Below the pieces are notes generated by a model, which did not search any database, was not told where the DNA came from, and saw nothing but the letters and a program-made list of their open reading frames with translations. The position numbers and the translations under genes are program-made. This document shows, piece after piece, positions 14,093-34,018 of a DNA stretch of 64,000 nt. The stretch's first letter is position 1; each line of letters opens with the position of its first letter. This DNA is from Sutcliffiella horikoshii (lineage in GTDB: Bacteria > Bacillota > Bacilli > Bacillales > Bacillaceae_I). The stretch covers positions 2,868,666 to 2,932,665 of the forward strand of contig KV440964.1 of assembly GCA_001636495.1 (NCBI GenBank), in the 5' to 3' direction.

Positions 14093-14121
14093 CATCTTAT
14101 GTAACCTAGGGAAAATCTGTG
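14093..14121 (-). promoter_or_regulatory. Sigma-K promoter candidate for spoVFA-spoVFB
   Basis: On the minus strand CACA (14118-14121) is followed after 16 bp by CATAAGATG (14093-14101). The sigma-K consensus is AC at -35 and CATAnnnTA at -10 with 16-17 bp spacing, so only the last A differs. It lies 66 bp upstream of the spoVFA start. The B. subtilis spoVF operon is sigma-K dependent, which supports the call. Confidence 0.75.
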
Positions 14122-14193
14122 CTTGAATCCTGGGAGAAAGGAAGAGTTAGAGGGGATTTGTTCCACAAGAAAAACCAGGAAAATACAATAGCC

Positions 14194-14323
14194 GCTGTTC
14201 CTTTCCGCAAATAGCTTCGCTTTCCACGGGGCGACCTTGAGCCTCCTCGGCGTTCGCCTGCGGGGTCTCAAGATTGTCGCTACTCCCCCGTAGGAGTCTA
14301 CGCTATTTGCTCCAATCCACAGC
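14194..14323 (+). repeat. GC-rich intergenic repeat, copy 1
   Basis: About 130 bp bounded by GCTGT and ACAGC, sharing the core blocks CGCTTTCCACGGGGCGA, TTGAGCCTCCTC, GCGGGGTCTCAAG and CTCCCCCGTAGGAGTC with three other copies in the window. The core can fold: TTGAG...CTCAA and GCCTCC-type arms. No ORF with a credible start lies inside. It occupies the 588-bp gap between ymxH and spoVFA; outside this repeat, the sigma-K promoter, the MITE and the ymxH terminator I see nothing else in that gap. Confidence 0.85.
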
Positions 14324-14397
14324 TAGAAACCAGTCATCTCTTTGAGAGAGATTTTAGTTGTGAATGAAATTAACCGCATTTTATACTTCTAATAAAA

Positions 14398-14580
14398 GGC
14401 TGTTTCCGTAAACTTTGTTGCTTTTTCGAATTTTTAAACCAACGGTAATATTCCTTGCTATCGTGCTCTTTTCCCGGCTATCCGGATAGGGTTTTATGCC
14501 AACCTTAGAGTCTATATGCGGTAAAAAGTCCTATTGCCGACTTTTTACAAGTTAATAGCAACAATCTTTGAGAAAAGACC
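14398..14580 (+). mobile_element. MITE-like element, copy A (183 bp)
   Basis: Starts GGCTGTTTCCGTAAACTTTG and ends with the reverse of GGTCTTTTCTCAAAGATTG, giving imperfect terminal inverted repeats of about 25 bp. It aligns along its whole length with the inverted copy at 32011-32193. An internal perfect inverted repeat GTAAAAAGTC/GACTTTTTAC lies at 14521-14548. Flanks taataaaa and aattaaaa may be a decayed 8-bp target duplication. It encodes no protein. Confidence 0.75.
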
Positions 14581-14585
14581 CAATT

Positions 14586-14612
14586 AAAAAAAGACCCGGC
14601 ACACGCCAAGTC
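14586..14612 (-). terminator. Terminator after ymxH
   Basis: On the minus strand GACTTGGC pairs with GCCGGGTC (two G-T pairs) around a GTGT loop, followed by seven T. It directly follows the ymxH stop and abuts the MITE copy A. Confidence 0.85.
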
Positions 14613-14615
14613 GTT

Positions 14616-14870
14616 TTACTCTTGTTCTTCGGGAATATCGATGATGATCATATCTGTTCCTATTTTCTTTATATGGTTCCATGGGACTCGGATGTCACTG
14701 CCTTCCTTTTTCAACCCGAACCATTTTAGGGAAGGAATGATAAGCGAGCGGATTTCACCCGTATTCTCGTTGATTTCAAGATCAGTATGTCCCAAGATCC
14801 CTAAACGCTCCGCCCTTTTCACATCCACAATTTCCTTACCACTCATTTCACTTAGCCTCATAAAAAACAC
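14616..14870 (-). CDS. ymxH: YlmC/YmxH family sporulation protein (PRC-barrel)
   Basis: An 84-residue PRC-barrel protein of the YlmC/YmxH family. It reads MRLSEMSGKEIVDVKRAERLG from residue 4 or so and contains the barrel strand pattern GHTDLEINENTGEIRSLIIP. A GGGAGGTG site precedes the start region; the first ATG in MFFMRL and the internal ATG (fourth codon) are both possible. It sits between mlpA and the spoVF genes, each boundary marked by a terminator. The family is linked to sporulation, but no biochemical function is established. Confidence 0.88.
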   Translation of the reverse strand: MFFMRLSEMSGKEIVDVKRAERLGILGHTDLEINENTGEIRSLIIPSLKWFGLKKEGSDIRVPWNHIKKIGTDMIIIDIPEEQE

Positions 14871-27642: not shown

Positions 27643-30600
27643 TTAGAATAGAGAAAGTTGGTTTTGATCTGGCATTCCTTCGAGACAGCCGTGATTATCC
27701 AGATACTCCAAAATCGTTTTGGAGATTCTTCCTCTTTGCTGAAGGTCCTCTTTGGATAGAAATTCGCCATCTTTCCTTGAATTTACAATGTTGATGGCGG
27801 CATTTGTCCCTAACCCAGGTATGGAGTTGAATGGCGGGATTAGGGAATCACCTTCAATAAGGAAATCAGTTGCGCTGGATTTATATAAGTCGACCTTTTT
27901 AAAGGAAAAGCCGCGCTCACTCATCTCAAGAGCTAATTCCATCACTGTTAGCAAGGATTTTTCCTTTGGGGAAGCTTCCAAGCCCTTTGCATTGATTTCT
28001 TCTACTACTTTACGGATCGCGGCAGAACCTTTAACCATTGTATCAATATCAAAGTCATCTGCTCGTACTGTAAAATACGCTGCATAGTACATAAGCGGGA
28101 AATGCACTTTGAAATATGCGATCCGAACAGCCATCAGCACATAAGCTGCTGCGTGGGCTTTCGGGAACATGTATTTTATTTTTAAACAGGAGTCGATATA
28201 CCATGCTGGTACATCGTTTTTAATCATTTCCTCTTTAAATTCATCTGATAGCCCTTTCCCTTTACGGACAGATTCCATAATCTTAAAGGCCATCGAAGGG
28301 TCAAGGCCTTTATAGATGAGATAAACCATGATGTCATCACGGCAACCGATTACTTCGCTAAGAGTACAAGTCTTATTATGAATAAGCTCTTGTGCATTCC
28401 CAAGCCAAACGTCGGTGCCATGGGATAATCCGGATATCTGTACTAATTCAGAGAAAGTTGACGGTTTTGTATCTTCAAGCATCTGTCTAACAAACCTAGT
28501 ACCAAACTCCGGAATCCCTAGTGTTCCTGTTTTACACATAATCTGTTCTTCTGTCACGCCAAGGGATTCTGTACCACTGAATATCTTCATCACATACGGA
28601 TCATCCGTCGGTATGGTCTTAGGATCTATACCACTAAGATCCTGGAGCATTCTGATTACGGTCGGGTCATCGTGGCCCAGGATATCGAGCTTAAGCAAGT
28701 TATCATGGATAGAGTGGAAATCAAAATGGGTCGTTTTCCACTCTGAATTCTGGTCATCTGCTGGATACTGGATAGGAGAGAAATCAAAAATATCCATATA
28801 ATCCGGTACCACGATGATTCCCCCGGGATGTTGCCCGGTCGACCTTCTAACACCCGTACAACCTGAAGACAGCCTGTCTATTTCTGCCCCACGCAGGATG
28901 AGGTTCCGATCATTGGCATATCCTTTCACATAACCATAGGCGGTTTTATCAGCAACCGTTCCAATGGTCCCAGCTCGAAATACATACTCCTCGCCGAACA
29001 GAACCTTCGTATAGTTATGGGCTCTCGGCTGATACTCACCAGAGAAGTTCAAATCGATATCAGGAACCTTGTCCCCTTTGAAGCCAAGGAACGTTTCAAA
29101 CGGGATGTCATGCCCATCCTTTGTGAATGCTTCCCCACAATTCGGGCAGTCTTTGTCCGGCAAGTCAAACCCGGAACCAACTGATCCATCATCGAAGAAT
29201 TCGGACAGTTTACAAGATGGACAAACATAATGCGGCGGTAATGGGTTAACCTCTGTAATCTCCGTCATCGTTGCAACAAAAGAGGAACCAACTGACCCAC
29301 GGGAACCTACCAGGTAACCATCATCAAGTGATTTCTTAACAAGCTTCTGGGAAATCAGATAAATAACGGCAAATCCATGGCCGATAATGCTCTTCAATTC
29401 TTTTTCAATCCGCTTTTCCACAATCTCGGGAAGATCTTCCCCGTAGATGCTCCTAGCTCTTGAATAGCTCATCTCCCTGATTTCTTCATCAGCACCCTCG
29501 ATCTTCGGGGTGTAAAGGTCGTCTTTGATTGGTTTGATTTCCTCTACCATCCCTGCAATCTTTTGCGTGTTGGTGACCACGATCTCCTTCGCCTTTTCTT
29601 CACCTAGAAACGAAAAAGCTGCAAGCATTTCATCCGTCGTCTTAAAATGGACATCTGGAAGCTGATGCCTGTTCAACGGATTTGCCCCTGATTGAGAACG
29701 CACAAGGATCTCACGATGGATTTTATCGGTTTCTTTCAAGTAATGGACATTTCCTGTTGCCACTACTGGTTTGTCCATTTTTTCACCAAGTTTGACAATG
29801 TTGGTGATAATCTCTTTAAGGGCCTTTTCATCTCTGACTAGTTCCAGCTCTAACAAATGGGCATAATTGCTTGGAGGTTGCACTTCGATATAATCATAGA
29901 ATTCCGCGATGCCTTCTACTTCATCCGGTGATTTCTGCATCATGCCTTCAAAAACCTCACCCTTATCGCAGGCAGTTCCCACAATGATTCCTTCTCGCAA
30001 CTTCTGAAGTTGTGATCGCGGAATCCTTGGAACGCGGAAAAAGTAATTCATATGTGAGATAGAGACTATTTTAAATATGTTTTTCAACCCTATATCATTT
30101 ATAGCAAGCAATGTCACATGGGATGGTCTTGCTCGTTTATAGGCATCTGTCGTCCCGGAATGTTCATTCAGTTCATCATGATAGGTGATTCCCTTTTCCA
30201 TAGCGTCCTTAAGCATTTTCACCAAAAGGTATCCTGTTGCTTCCGCATCATAAATTGCCCGGTGATGCTGAGTCAATTCGATATCAAACTTTTTACAAAG
30301 GGTATTCAACCGGTGATTTTTCAGTGACGGAAAGAGCAGACGACCCAGTTCCAATGTATCAATGACAGGATTTTTGGCTTTACCAAGGCCTATCCGTTGA
30401 AAACCGATATTTAAGAATCCCATATCAAAACTTGCATTATGCGCCACAAGAATATCATCTTGCATCCACTCGGAAAAATCTTTTAAGACATCGCCTACTT
30501 CAGGGGCGTTCCTTACCATATCATCAGTAATGCCTGTCAGGTTGATAGTCGTGGCAGATAGTGAGTGGTGTGGATTTGCGAACGATTCGAACCTATCAAT

Positions 30601-31980
30601 GATCTCTCCACCTTTTATCTTCACTGCCGCAAGCTCGATGATGGTATCGTACATGGCGGATAACCCTGTTGTCTCAACGTCAAATACAACATATGTATCC
30701 TCTGCAAGATTACGGTGGGCGGGATTGTATGCAATTGGCACACCATCATCTACCAGGTTGACTTCTAAGCCATAGAGAATTTTCACACCGTTCTTCTTCC
30801 CTGCTGCATACGCTTCAGGATAGGCTTGTGCAACGGCGTGGTCTGTGACTGCGATGGCTTCATGTCCCCACTTTTTGGCTTGAGCGACTAAAGAAGAAAT
30901 GGAACTCACTGCATCCATGGTGCTCATTGGGGTGTGCAAATGCAGCTCGACCCTTTTTTCTCCCTCTGGGGCTGTATCCACTATTTCCTTCCCCTTAAAT
31001 TCATTGATGTCATTGGCCATCATCACAAGGTCACGTACGAAAGTATCATTCTGGATGCTTCCCCTTACCTTTAGCCACATTCCTTTTTTGACTGCTTGTA
31101 AAAGTGGTATATCCTCTTTATCTCTAGAGAACATTTTCACCATGATGGAATTCGTGTAGTCAGTGATTTTGAATGTCAACAATGTTCTTCCACTACGCAA
31201 CTCTTTCGTCTCTGCGTCAAAGACGTATCCTTGTACCGCTACACGTCTTTCCTCTTCCACAATTTCTGCTAATGTCTTTATTTCTGCATCATCTTTAATG
31301 TTATAACCAATCATGACCGGACCACTTACAGCATTTTCGTCCTTGGAACTATCCTTTTTCTGCATTTCTGTAACTGCAGCCATAGCTTTCTGTTTATCTT
31401 CTTGTTGCTTTTGCTCTACAAACTGCTGATACTCCTCTTCTGAGTGAGAAAGGGTTGTATCAAGCATGAATGTTGGGAAACCAAATCCTTCGTAGGTGGA
31501 ACAGATGGTAGTACTGAGCTTTTTCTTCACCGCGATAGCTTCCGCTTCATTTCTGGCTTTCAGCATCAGCTTGTTCCCTTGCAGGGTCGGAACTTGTCCA
31601 TTTAAAAGCATTAATAATGGCGGGGAGCATGCTTGCAGCTCTTTCAGGCAGATTGGCCAATAATCCGCTATATAGGAATTTTCAAATGAGCGGTCCTGTA
31701 CGGACAATGAAAAGGATACATTTGCAATATGTGCAAAGCTTTTTGTCAGTTTCTCATAAAATAGGTCATATACTTTCGCTGGCAATATTCGTCCCAACAC
31801 AAAGTGGAAGTGCCATCTTTTCGTGTTCTTTTCAACTGTCAGTTTTTCAATTCCAGCCTCTGCAAAGTAAGGAAAAATATCATCACTTGTTAATTCGAGC
31901 TGCTGGAGGAGTAAACGGAATCTATCTTTTTTCTCTTGAGACATCTGGTCAAGCAAAGTTCGGTCCCCTTTCCCTTGCAT
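27643..31980 (-). CDS. polC: DNA polymerase III alpha subunit, PolC type
   Basis: A 1445-residue replicative polymerase with built-in proofreading, the main leading-strand enzyme of Firmicutes. Order: N-terminal domains (1-210), OB fold ([20 protein letters not shown]), split PHP domain ([18 protein letters not shown]), DEDDh exonuclease inserted in it ([20 protein letters not shown]), a zinc-binding segment ([10 protein letters not shown]...CPNCG) and the polymerase domain with [12 protein letters not shown]. It ends DQNQLSLF, the beta-clamp-binding tail QLSLF. The ATG at 31980 has no good ribosome site; a TTG at 31956 has AAGGGG 8 bp upstream and is a strong alternative. Confidence 0.97.
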
Positions 31981-32010
31981 AGTTGATCATCAATGGTCGT
32001 TTTTCTATAT

Positions 32011-32193
32011 GGCTCTTTTCTCAAAGATTGTTGCTATTTATAGTAAAAAGTCGGCAATTGGACTTTTTATTGCTTATCTATTCTTAATTAGGCATGCAGT
32101 CTATCCCGTATAGCTACGAAAAGAGCACGATAACAAAGAAAATAACGGTTGATTTATAAATACGAAAAAGCAACAAAGTTTACGAAAACAGCC
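32011..32193 (-). mobile_element. MITE-like element, copy B (183 bp) with 8-bp target duplication
   Basis: On the plus strand it starts GGCTCTTTTCTCAAAGATTG and ends with the reverse complement of GGCTGTTTTCGTAAACTTTG, giving about 25-bp terminal inverted repeats (20 of 25 matching). It is flanked by perfect direct repeats ttctatat (32003-32010 and 32194-32201). It is in inverse orientation to copy A, has the same length and no ORF. An inner inverted repeat GTAAAAAGTC/GACTTTTTAT lies at 32043-32070. It sits between proS and polC, 30 bp upstream of the polC ATG. Confidence 0.88.
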
Positions 32194-32210
32194 TTCTATA
32201 TGGACATAAT

Positions 32211-32242
32211 GGAAGGTACCGCCATGATGGGGGTACCTTCTT
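32211..32242 (-). terminator. Hairpin after proS
   Basis: A perfect 9-bp inverted repeat GAAGGTACC/GGTACCTTC around an 11-nt loop, just past the proS stop. The minus-strand sequence after it has no T-run (CATTATG), so as a proS terminator it is weak. Confidence 0.4.
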
Positions 32243-32270
32243 TTAGTATTCAATTCTATTGTACTACATT

Positions 32271-33959
32271 TTATCGTAGCTTTTGTAATAATTGGTCCAC
32301 AGTTAACTCTTCTTTGTCTCCTGTTTTTCTCCATTTGACTTCTACCACTTTTTCATATGCTCTTTTACCCACAGTTACACGAACCGGCAACCCGATTAAG
32401 TCTGAGTCGGTGAATTTTACACCTGGACGTTCTTGACGGTCGTCCATCAGGACAGAAAAACGAGCATTTTTTAACTCTCCATAGATCTCTTCTGCCAAGG
32501 TAGCTTGTGCTTCATTTTTCATATTTACAGGAATGACATGAACATCAAAAGGTGTAACTGCCTGAGGCCATACAATCCCATTTTCATCATGATATTGTTC
32601 CACGATGGCTGCAAGAACACGGGAAACCCCAATGCCATAGCAACCCATGATCATCGGCTGGTTTCTGCCATTCTCATCTAAGAAGTTCGCTCCCATCGCT
32701 TCACTGTAACGAGTACCGAGCTTAAAAATATGCCCTACTTCAATCCCTTTTGCAAACTGGATGACACCCTGTCCATCAGGGGAAAGGTCTCCTTCCTCGA
32801 TAAAGCGAAGATCTGTGAACTGAGCAACTTCAAAGTCCCTAGATGGATTTACGTTCTTATAGTGAACTCCTTCTTCGTTGGCACCTGTTACTGCATTTAC
32901 CAGATATTCTACAGCTGTATCTGCAACAATTTCCACAGATTCCGGTACACCGATAGGTCCCAAGGAACCAATGGAACAGCCCATAACCTTTTGAACTTCT
33001 TCTGCTGTAGCCATTTCTACAACGGATGCCTGGTAAAGATTTTTTACTTTTACGTCATTTATTTCGTGGTCTCCTCTTGCAAGCACCAAAATAAACTTCT
33101 CATCCACTTTAAAGATAATGGATTTAATTAAATCTGATTTTTCCATCTGCAAGAAGCTGGCCACTTCTTCAATCGTTTTTTGGCCAGGAGTGCTTACTTT
33201 TTCCTTTTCCAAAGCAGCCTCCGATTTCTTTTCATAGTTGGCAACAACCGGAGCCATCTCAATATTAGCTGCAAAAGAGGATTCATTGGAGTATGCAATG
33301 GTGTCTTCCCCGATTTCAGAAAGTACCATGAACTCATGGGTATCCTTTCCACCCATTGCACCAGAATCGGCGATGACTGCACGGAAATTCAAGCCTAACC
33401 TTGTGAAGATATTGGAATAAGCTGTAAACATCTTTTCGTATGTATCATCCAAGGATTCCGCATTGGCGTGGAAGGAATAGGCATCTTTCATGAGGAATTC
33501 TCGTCCTCTTAACAATCCAAAGCGTGGACGTTTCTCGTCACGAAATTTGGTTTGGATCTGATAAAGGGATAAAGGAAGCTTTTTATAGGATTTCACTTCA
33601 TCTCTTACAAGTGTGGTGATCACTTCCTCGTGAGTGGCACCAAGTGCAAATTCACGATTGTGTCGGTCATTCAGTCTCATCAATTCTGGACCGTAGGAAT
33701 ACCATCTTCCTGATTCCTGCCATAATTCTGCTGCTTGCATCGCTGGCATAAGCAATTCAACGGCACCGGCATTATCCATTTCTTCTCTTACTATGTCCTC
33801 CACTTTTTTAAGTACTTTTTTCCCAAGTGGCAGAAAACTATAGATACCGCTCGTGTTTTGGCGGATATATCCTGCTCTAAGCAGTAGTTGATGACTTTTA
33901 ACCTCAGCGTCAGCTGGTACTTCTCGTAGTGTTGGAATAAGCATGTTACTTTGTTTCAT
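32271..33959 (-). CDS. proS: Prolyl-tRNA synthetase
   Basis: A 562-residue class II synthetase of the bacterial type, attaching proline to tRNA. Motif 2 ([23 protein letters not shown]) and motif 3 ([20 protein letters not shown]) are clear. The insertion between them (about 225-385) is the YbaK-like editing domain that removes misacylated alanine. The anticodon domain ends the protein. I start at 33959 ([13 protein letters not shown]) where GGGGTG lies 5 bp upstream. It follows rasP, separated by a 431-bp gap with two repeat elements; I see no T-box leader there. Confidence 0.96.
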
Positions 33960-34018
33960 TTCTACACCCCATAACCATTTCAATAGTATTTATGTATTTT
34001 TAGTATTACATTTAACAT

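Follow-up and report, generated by a model that had tools for sequence, protein, structure and literature searches.

A multi-copy miniature element next to polC in Sutcliffiella horikoshii has IS1595-type ends and carries a hairpin that keeps its pairing

The window, a 64,000-nucleotide stretch of the Sutcliffiella horikoshii genome, carries a 183-bp non-coding insert at positions 32011-32193 with an exact TTCTATAT on either side. It lies between two reverse-strand genes, one of which we take to be polC from its label in a preliminary description of this DNA and its likeness to Bacillus PolC, while the other is an ORF whose name, proS, comes from the same description. The features of the element and its surroundings, in window coordinates, are as follows.

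27643-31956, reverse strand: polC, with a probable TTG start at 31956
32003-32010: target-site duplication, left copy, TTCTATAT
32011-32193, forward strand: MITE-like element of 183 bp, from A-type end to B-type end
32011-32037, forward strand: A-type end, beginning GGCTCTTTTCTCAAAGATTGTTGC
32043-32070: conserved hairpin with a 10-bp stem and an 8-nt loop, GGCAATTG (CAATTGCC on the opposite strand)
32118-32130, forward strand: conserved internal motif GAAAAGAGCACGA, which includes the element-tip sequence inverted
32167-32193, reverse strand: B-type end, beginning GGCTGTTTTCGTAAACTTTGTTGC
32194-32201: target-site duplication, right copy, TTCTATAT
32271-33983, reverse strand: proS-labelled ORF
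14398-14581, reverse strand: second family copy, 184 bp, duplication matching at 6 of 8 positions

The two ends of the insert are inverted repeats of each other, identical at 20 of 25 positions (24 of 34 over a longer span), and the longest stop-free stretch between them is 33 codons. The preliminary description had reported 183 bp between exact 8-bp repeats, ends matched at 20 of 25 positions and no coding capacity, all of which we reproduced; the inverted relative that it placed at 14398-14580 is also present, except that this copy ends at 14581 and measures 184 bp.

The distance of 30 bp that it gave between the insertion and the polC ATG is counted from the ATG at 31980 and has to be revised. 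Because a Shine-Dalgarno-like GGAAAGGGGA, kept with local alterations among relatives, is located downstream of that ATG (31964-31973, reverse strand), the TTG at 31956 is likelier to be the polC start, which would put the insertion about 47 bp away. We compared the gap, from the polC ribosome site to the GGTACC that follows proS, in all 16 genomes of the genus and found it free of any family member in 14 of the 15 relatives. In one of these (G002) the sequence TTTTCTCTATATCGACATAATGG stands at the place that in the window is taken up by the element and its two flanking copies of TTCTATAT, so that the empty site for which the preliminary description had proposed to look in close relatives does exist. 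The fifteenth relative (G009) harbours a different family member at another position in the same gap (L101 / L271), an independent insertion. That the insertion in the window is recent, as had been suggested, is plausible, given its exact duplication and a nearest copy with differences at 4 of 183 positions. The GGTACC itself, present in 16/16 genomes, forms part of a palindromic stem after proS (window 32207-32245) that was legible in 15; the window's version has no T run after it in the direction of proS.

Since the element sits between the stem that follows proS and the polC ribosome site, and G009 has acquired its own relative there, the insert might be regarded as a polC-specific regulatory insertion under selection. 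We consider this very improbable, as at least 39 further copies are found elsewhere in the genome, 14 of the 15 relatives manage without the insert, and neither outward promoters nor intrinsic terminators occur in the element above chance. No Rfam 15 covariance model reached its gathering threshold in the whole window, and nothing up to E 1 was found for window positions 31950-32260 and 14100-14700. Known RNA families were likewise missing over the element and over the relatives' copies in the loci scanned, where the three Rfam matches (riboswitches and a leader) fall outside the element copies. Folding of the whole element as RNA gave mean z-scores of -2.6 and -4.1 on the two strands (15 copies from the same genome), values that are partly due to the inverted ends and were therefore not counted as evidence. 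Plasmid records contained no match to window positions 31700-32500.

Searching the 4.26-Mb genome of the strain (3 contigs, 99.89% complete) revealed at least 40 copies of the element, all with E <= 3e-25 (77 first-look candidates, 40 scored), of which 39, spanning nearly the full element, bear out the preliminary description's proposal to search for full-length copies; identity ranges from 75 to 100%, the window copy included. When up to three mismatches were allowed, the A-type end was detected at 43 places and the B-type end at 45, a few of them counted as both, and the reversed-pattern control gave 0 for either end. Family matches were obtained in 25 of 41 genomes (this one and 40 relatives), including 16/16 of the genus. 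Within the genome 35 of the 40 copies break no ORF of at least 100 aa and 5 lie inside one; of 1000 positions drawn at random from these loci, 795 fall within such an ORF. No long autonomous copy was found in this genome: lone ends at 1021479, 1733214, 2403147 and 4041513 have no convincing partner, the sole candidate (for the end at 4041513) showing 7 mismatches and no duplication, and the ends at 3062983, 699896 and 397702 are parts of short copies of 163, 137 and 124 bp. One copy (L025, genome positions 3681894-3682075, duplication TTTCTCAA) sits in sequence resembling the end of another copy and is perhaps a nested insertion.

A second, GC-rich repeat of about 131 bp is located at window positions 14195-14325. 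Searching the genome for it gave 48 matches from 244 first-look candidates, with 40 strong copies, and no Rfam model matched it at E values up to 1. At several places it lies roughly 50-240 bp from MITE copies or lone ends.

Target-site duplications accompany many of the copies. Exact 8-bp duplications flank 19 of the 40 copies in the genome, 28 agree at 7 or more of the 8 positions and 12 fall below that, whereas mismatched flank pairs taken from different copies are exact in 4 of 1560 cases and reach 7/8 in 44 of 1560; mean agreement is 6.7 of 8 in the 40 copies versus 4.0 in the mismatched pairs. Among relatives' copies 31 of 77 have an exact duplication (18 of 5852 in the mismatched-pair control). 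Copy boundaries had initially been chosen partly by flank agreement, and with boundaries set by the ends only the exact counts are still 19/40 and 31/77. The 50 exact duplications yield the AT-rich consensus TTTNNAAA.

ISL3 elements create 8-bp duplications and have ends starting GGCTCTTT, and on such grounds the preliminary description had likened the ends to ISL3 and envisaged a transposase of that family acting from elsewhere in the genome. To identify the family that shares these ends, we looked on both sides of the transposase in 41 fetched loci (11 IS1595 and 30 ISL3) for the two best-matching 24-base ends, leaving out short NF033547 fragments in G005 and G010. In five of the 11 IS1595 loci, from four other genomes, neither end exceeds 6 mismatches and the duplication matches at 6-8 of 8 positions:

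L079: end mismatches 4 and 3 of 24, duplication 7/8
L081: end mismatches 3 and 3 of 24, duplication 8/8
L082 and L085: end mismatches 6 and 5 of 24, duplication 8/8
L083 (broken): end mismatches 2 and 5 of 24, duplication 6/8

The other six IS1595 loci, several of which are fragments, have no matching ends within 6 mismatches; one relic (L285, in G009) has ends with 7 and 5 mismatches and flanks agreeing at 4/8. By comparison, none of the 30 ISL3 loci fetched from relatives, some of them fragmentary or at contig ends, has both ends, the nearest (L347) showing 9 and 5 mismatches with an unrelated left end. The ISL3 domain PF01610 is also missing from this genome, where no ISL3-type transposase with the same ends was thus detected; 21 of the 61 genomes searched carry the domain. 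We therefore rejected ISL3 as the source family: that the insert is an ISL3-family MITE is almost certainly wrong.

Against NF033547, the NCBI model for IS1595 with its cut-off of 75, the L079, L081 and L082 transposases reach 195-211 bits. At E <= 0.1 this model matches in 6 of the 16 genus genomes and exceeds its cut-off only in G014, at the places of L082, L085 and L086, and the ends in G014 are more diverged (6 and 5 mismatches). PF12762, the IS1595 domain, was found in 6 of 41 genomes. In the genome of the window no IS1595 transposase was detected with PF12762, NF033547 or the L079 protein; the two models do match in control genomes, and the L079 search had no positive control of its own. 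A transposase acting from elsewhere in this genome thus finds no support, as neither an ISL3 nor an IS1595 enzyme was detected. In the L081 element (987-2796, about 1.8 kb), which is bounded by the exact duplication ATAAAAAA, the transposase is accompanied by a frame of 197 codons that is lipoprotein-like by eye.

The many copies, the 8-bp duplications and the site left empty in 14 of 15 relatives support the reading of the insert as a MITE, and the comparison of ends points to the family of its transposase. Judging from sequence, we consider it probable (at about 0.87) that we are dealing with a non-autonomous MITE whose movement depends on an IS1595-family DDE transposase acting in trans: the insert is short, multi-copy and non-coding, has AT-rich 8-bp duplications and shares its ends with IS1595 elements, although the autonomous IS1595 partner that is usual for such elements, and not required, had 0 matches in this genome. 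An IS1595-family transposase supplied in trans would recognise the two slightly different ends and insert the element, with an 8-base stagger, at an AT-rich site near TTTNNAAA, where repair would then leave the 8-bp duplication. Since none is found now, this transposase would have come and gone from the genome.

The ends have spread well beyond the genus. Scanning named genomes for exact occurrences of the B-type end returned at least 119 stretches with at least 120 matches; the 80 stretches listed come from Bacillus and related genera, among them Rossellomorea, Mesobacillus, Metabacillus, Alkalihalobacillus, Niallia, Fictibacillus, Gottfriedia and Peribacillus, with a few from S. horikoshii. 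Of the 120 listed matches, 74 have a partner end and a duplication of 7/8 or better, with element lengths of 107-1105 bp, and the remaining 46, which have no such pairing, were set aside. Among the matches listed, elements with common ends carry differing interiors across genera, with types of about 160 bp, about 190 bp and about 185 bp with long hairpins, and a type in which a GC-rich repeat, similar to that at window positions 14195-14325, lies inside IS1595-type ends (13 of the 74 elements). The longest, a 1105-bp element with the same ends (L050, 1501-2605, the place of L144), contains a nucleotidyltransferase gene (PF06042) and is perhaps a passenger-gene form; it also has a transposase-like fragment that is IS1595-like by eye, where Pfam found nothing.

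Within the genus the interior is far from uniform in its conservation. In an alignment of 110 of the 117 genus copies (7 were excluded by a length or end filter), the ends, the hairpin GTAAAAAGTC-8 nt-GACTTTTTAC and the motif GAAAAGAGCACGA are conserved, hairpin columns being kept at about 70-99% and most of the element middle at about 30-80%. A stem with an 8-nt loop occurs anywhere in the element in 115 of the 117 copies and near the A-type end in 114, and in the genome of the window the stem pattern was detected at 46 places (2 with unrelated loops) against 1 in the control. The pairing of this hairpin is kept through compensatory changes: in the 110 copies, unselected for pairing, 1075 of 1097 stem cells are paired, compared with 354-667 for slid partners, and 22 cells, at 4 of the 10 pairs, have changed on both sides. 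None of 1000 shuffles reached either the paired or the double-change count. These figures are not probabilities, given the kinship among the copies and a stem that was itself derived from their consensus.

Outside the genus the hairpin is patchier. Among the matches listed, 26 of the 68 short scan elements (the 6 of 74 longer than 260 bp were omitted) have a stem with an 8-nt loop, including two with unrelated loops (L128, L185) and two from S. horikoshii (L122, L177), and 29 of the 68 have no hairpin by the criterion used. Stems of other subfamilies read GGAAAAATCC/GGATTTTTCC, CGTAAATGTC/GACATTTACG and GTAAAAATC/GATTTTTAC, and CANNNGCC describes most of the loops, the window's copies having it in reverse orientation; this listing was preselected for pairing and loop and is descriptive only.

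Could such conservation be merely neutral, produced by the youth of the copies and by template switching that perfects palindromic stems? The stem changes do preserve the palindrome, as template-switch repair would, the shuffles overstate the signal because the copies are related, and in the 21 Rossellomorea-type copies alone the pairing signal, attained by 56 of 1000 shuffles, is weak. Against it, the letters of stem and loop are kept as well, at about 70-99% per column compared with about 30-80% in the middle, and the 8-nt loop length and its motif stay constant across differing subfamily stems, with the caveat that one listing was preselected for both. We regard the neutral account as a real possibility that falls short of even odds.

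Copies inherited in place bear on a different explanation, namely that the hairpin serves transposition only, as a site for the transposase or a host factor within the element. Comparison of 162 copies revealed nine insertion sites common to more than one species of the genus with both flanks matching; none of the 40 copies of the window's genome is among them (its copy L002 has a flank match on one side only), and relatives' copies were sampled in part. At these sites variable columns number 11/248 in the hairpin, 9/135 in the internal motif, 20/226 in the A-type end, 24/238 in the B-type end, 89/760 in the rest of the element and 85/1054 in the flanks, after 56 gapped columns had been dropped. 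The hairpin is less variable than the rest of the element (p 0.0005), with p 0.06 against the A-type end and p 0.02 against the B-type end (Fisher) and p 0.06 against the flanks, columns at shared sites being not fully independent. This suggests less change in the hairpin than in the remainder of the element where a copy has been inherited in place, and perhaps less than in ends and flanks, which speaks against a role in transposition only. So do the 29 short scan elements without a hairpin, and the four IS1595 loci examined, none of which has a hairpin of the element's kind: L079 has a single 8-bp stem, 460 bases inside, whose 8-nt loop differs in sequence, and the stems of L082 have loops of 7 and 9. 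On the other hand, among 30 paralogues of the genome the hairpin and the A-type end differ equally (0.056 versus 0.058 differences per site), as a transposition site would. Overall, a purely transpositional role appears rather unlikely.

The interior is more than filler, with a hairpin and an internal motif resisting change; the hairpin would most likely, as a guess, work as a folded nucleic acid, either RNA or single-stranded DNA. An even bolder proposal, which we consider improbable, is that selection maintains the hairpin as a folded site, in RNA or single-stranded DNA, that does a transposition-independent job for the host at dozens of intergenic places per genome, carried in structured non-coding modules that IS1595-type ends, as a delivery frame, have dispersed in Bacillus and related genera.

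IS1595-type MITEs are an already known kind of element. A MITE of Haloquadratum walsbyi assigned to the putative IS ISHwa6 (IS1595) has 165 bp, 7 copies, 25-bp inverted repeats and 8-bp direct repeats (PMC3852290), and thus resembles the element described here in size, inverted ends, duplications and IS1595-type parent. It differs in its archaeal host and its 7 copies, the likeness is one of description rather than of sequence, and the passage of that paper that presents it mentions neither a hairpin nor an order-wide spread. Similarly, ISApl4, of the IS1016 subgroup of IS1595, has AT-rich 8-bp direct repeats (for example TTTTATAA) and an IS1595-type transposase, but is described there as autonomous, 712 bp long and with ends GGGGCTGTACTAGA (PMC12561309). 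The bcr1 repeat of the Bacillus cereus group is, from its description, also short, multi-copy and structured (PMC2267715), and we take it as a different family, set apart by that description and not by sequence. A yeast paper that prints one of the four 13-letter end cores was taken as a chance match. The literature searched, which ISfinder and most subscription journals lay outside, yielded no description of such repeats, which are apparently undescribed, and no paper joining miniature inverted-repeat elements with Bacillaceae. What seems new is a set spanning many genera, with exchangeable structured interiors and a hairpin conserved in its pairing.

Direct comparison of ends and duplications ties repeats that are widespread in Bacillus and related genera to one transposase family, and brings to light a small hairpin whose letters change while the pairing persists. 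If this hairpin has a function for the host, the repeats would constitute a natural dispersed regulatory set.
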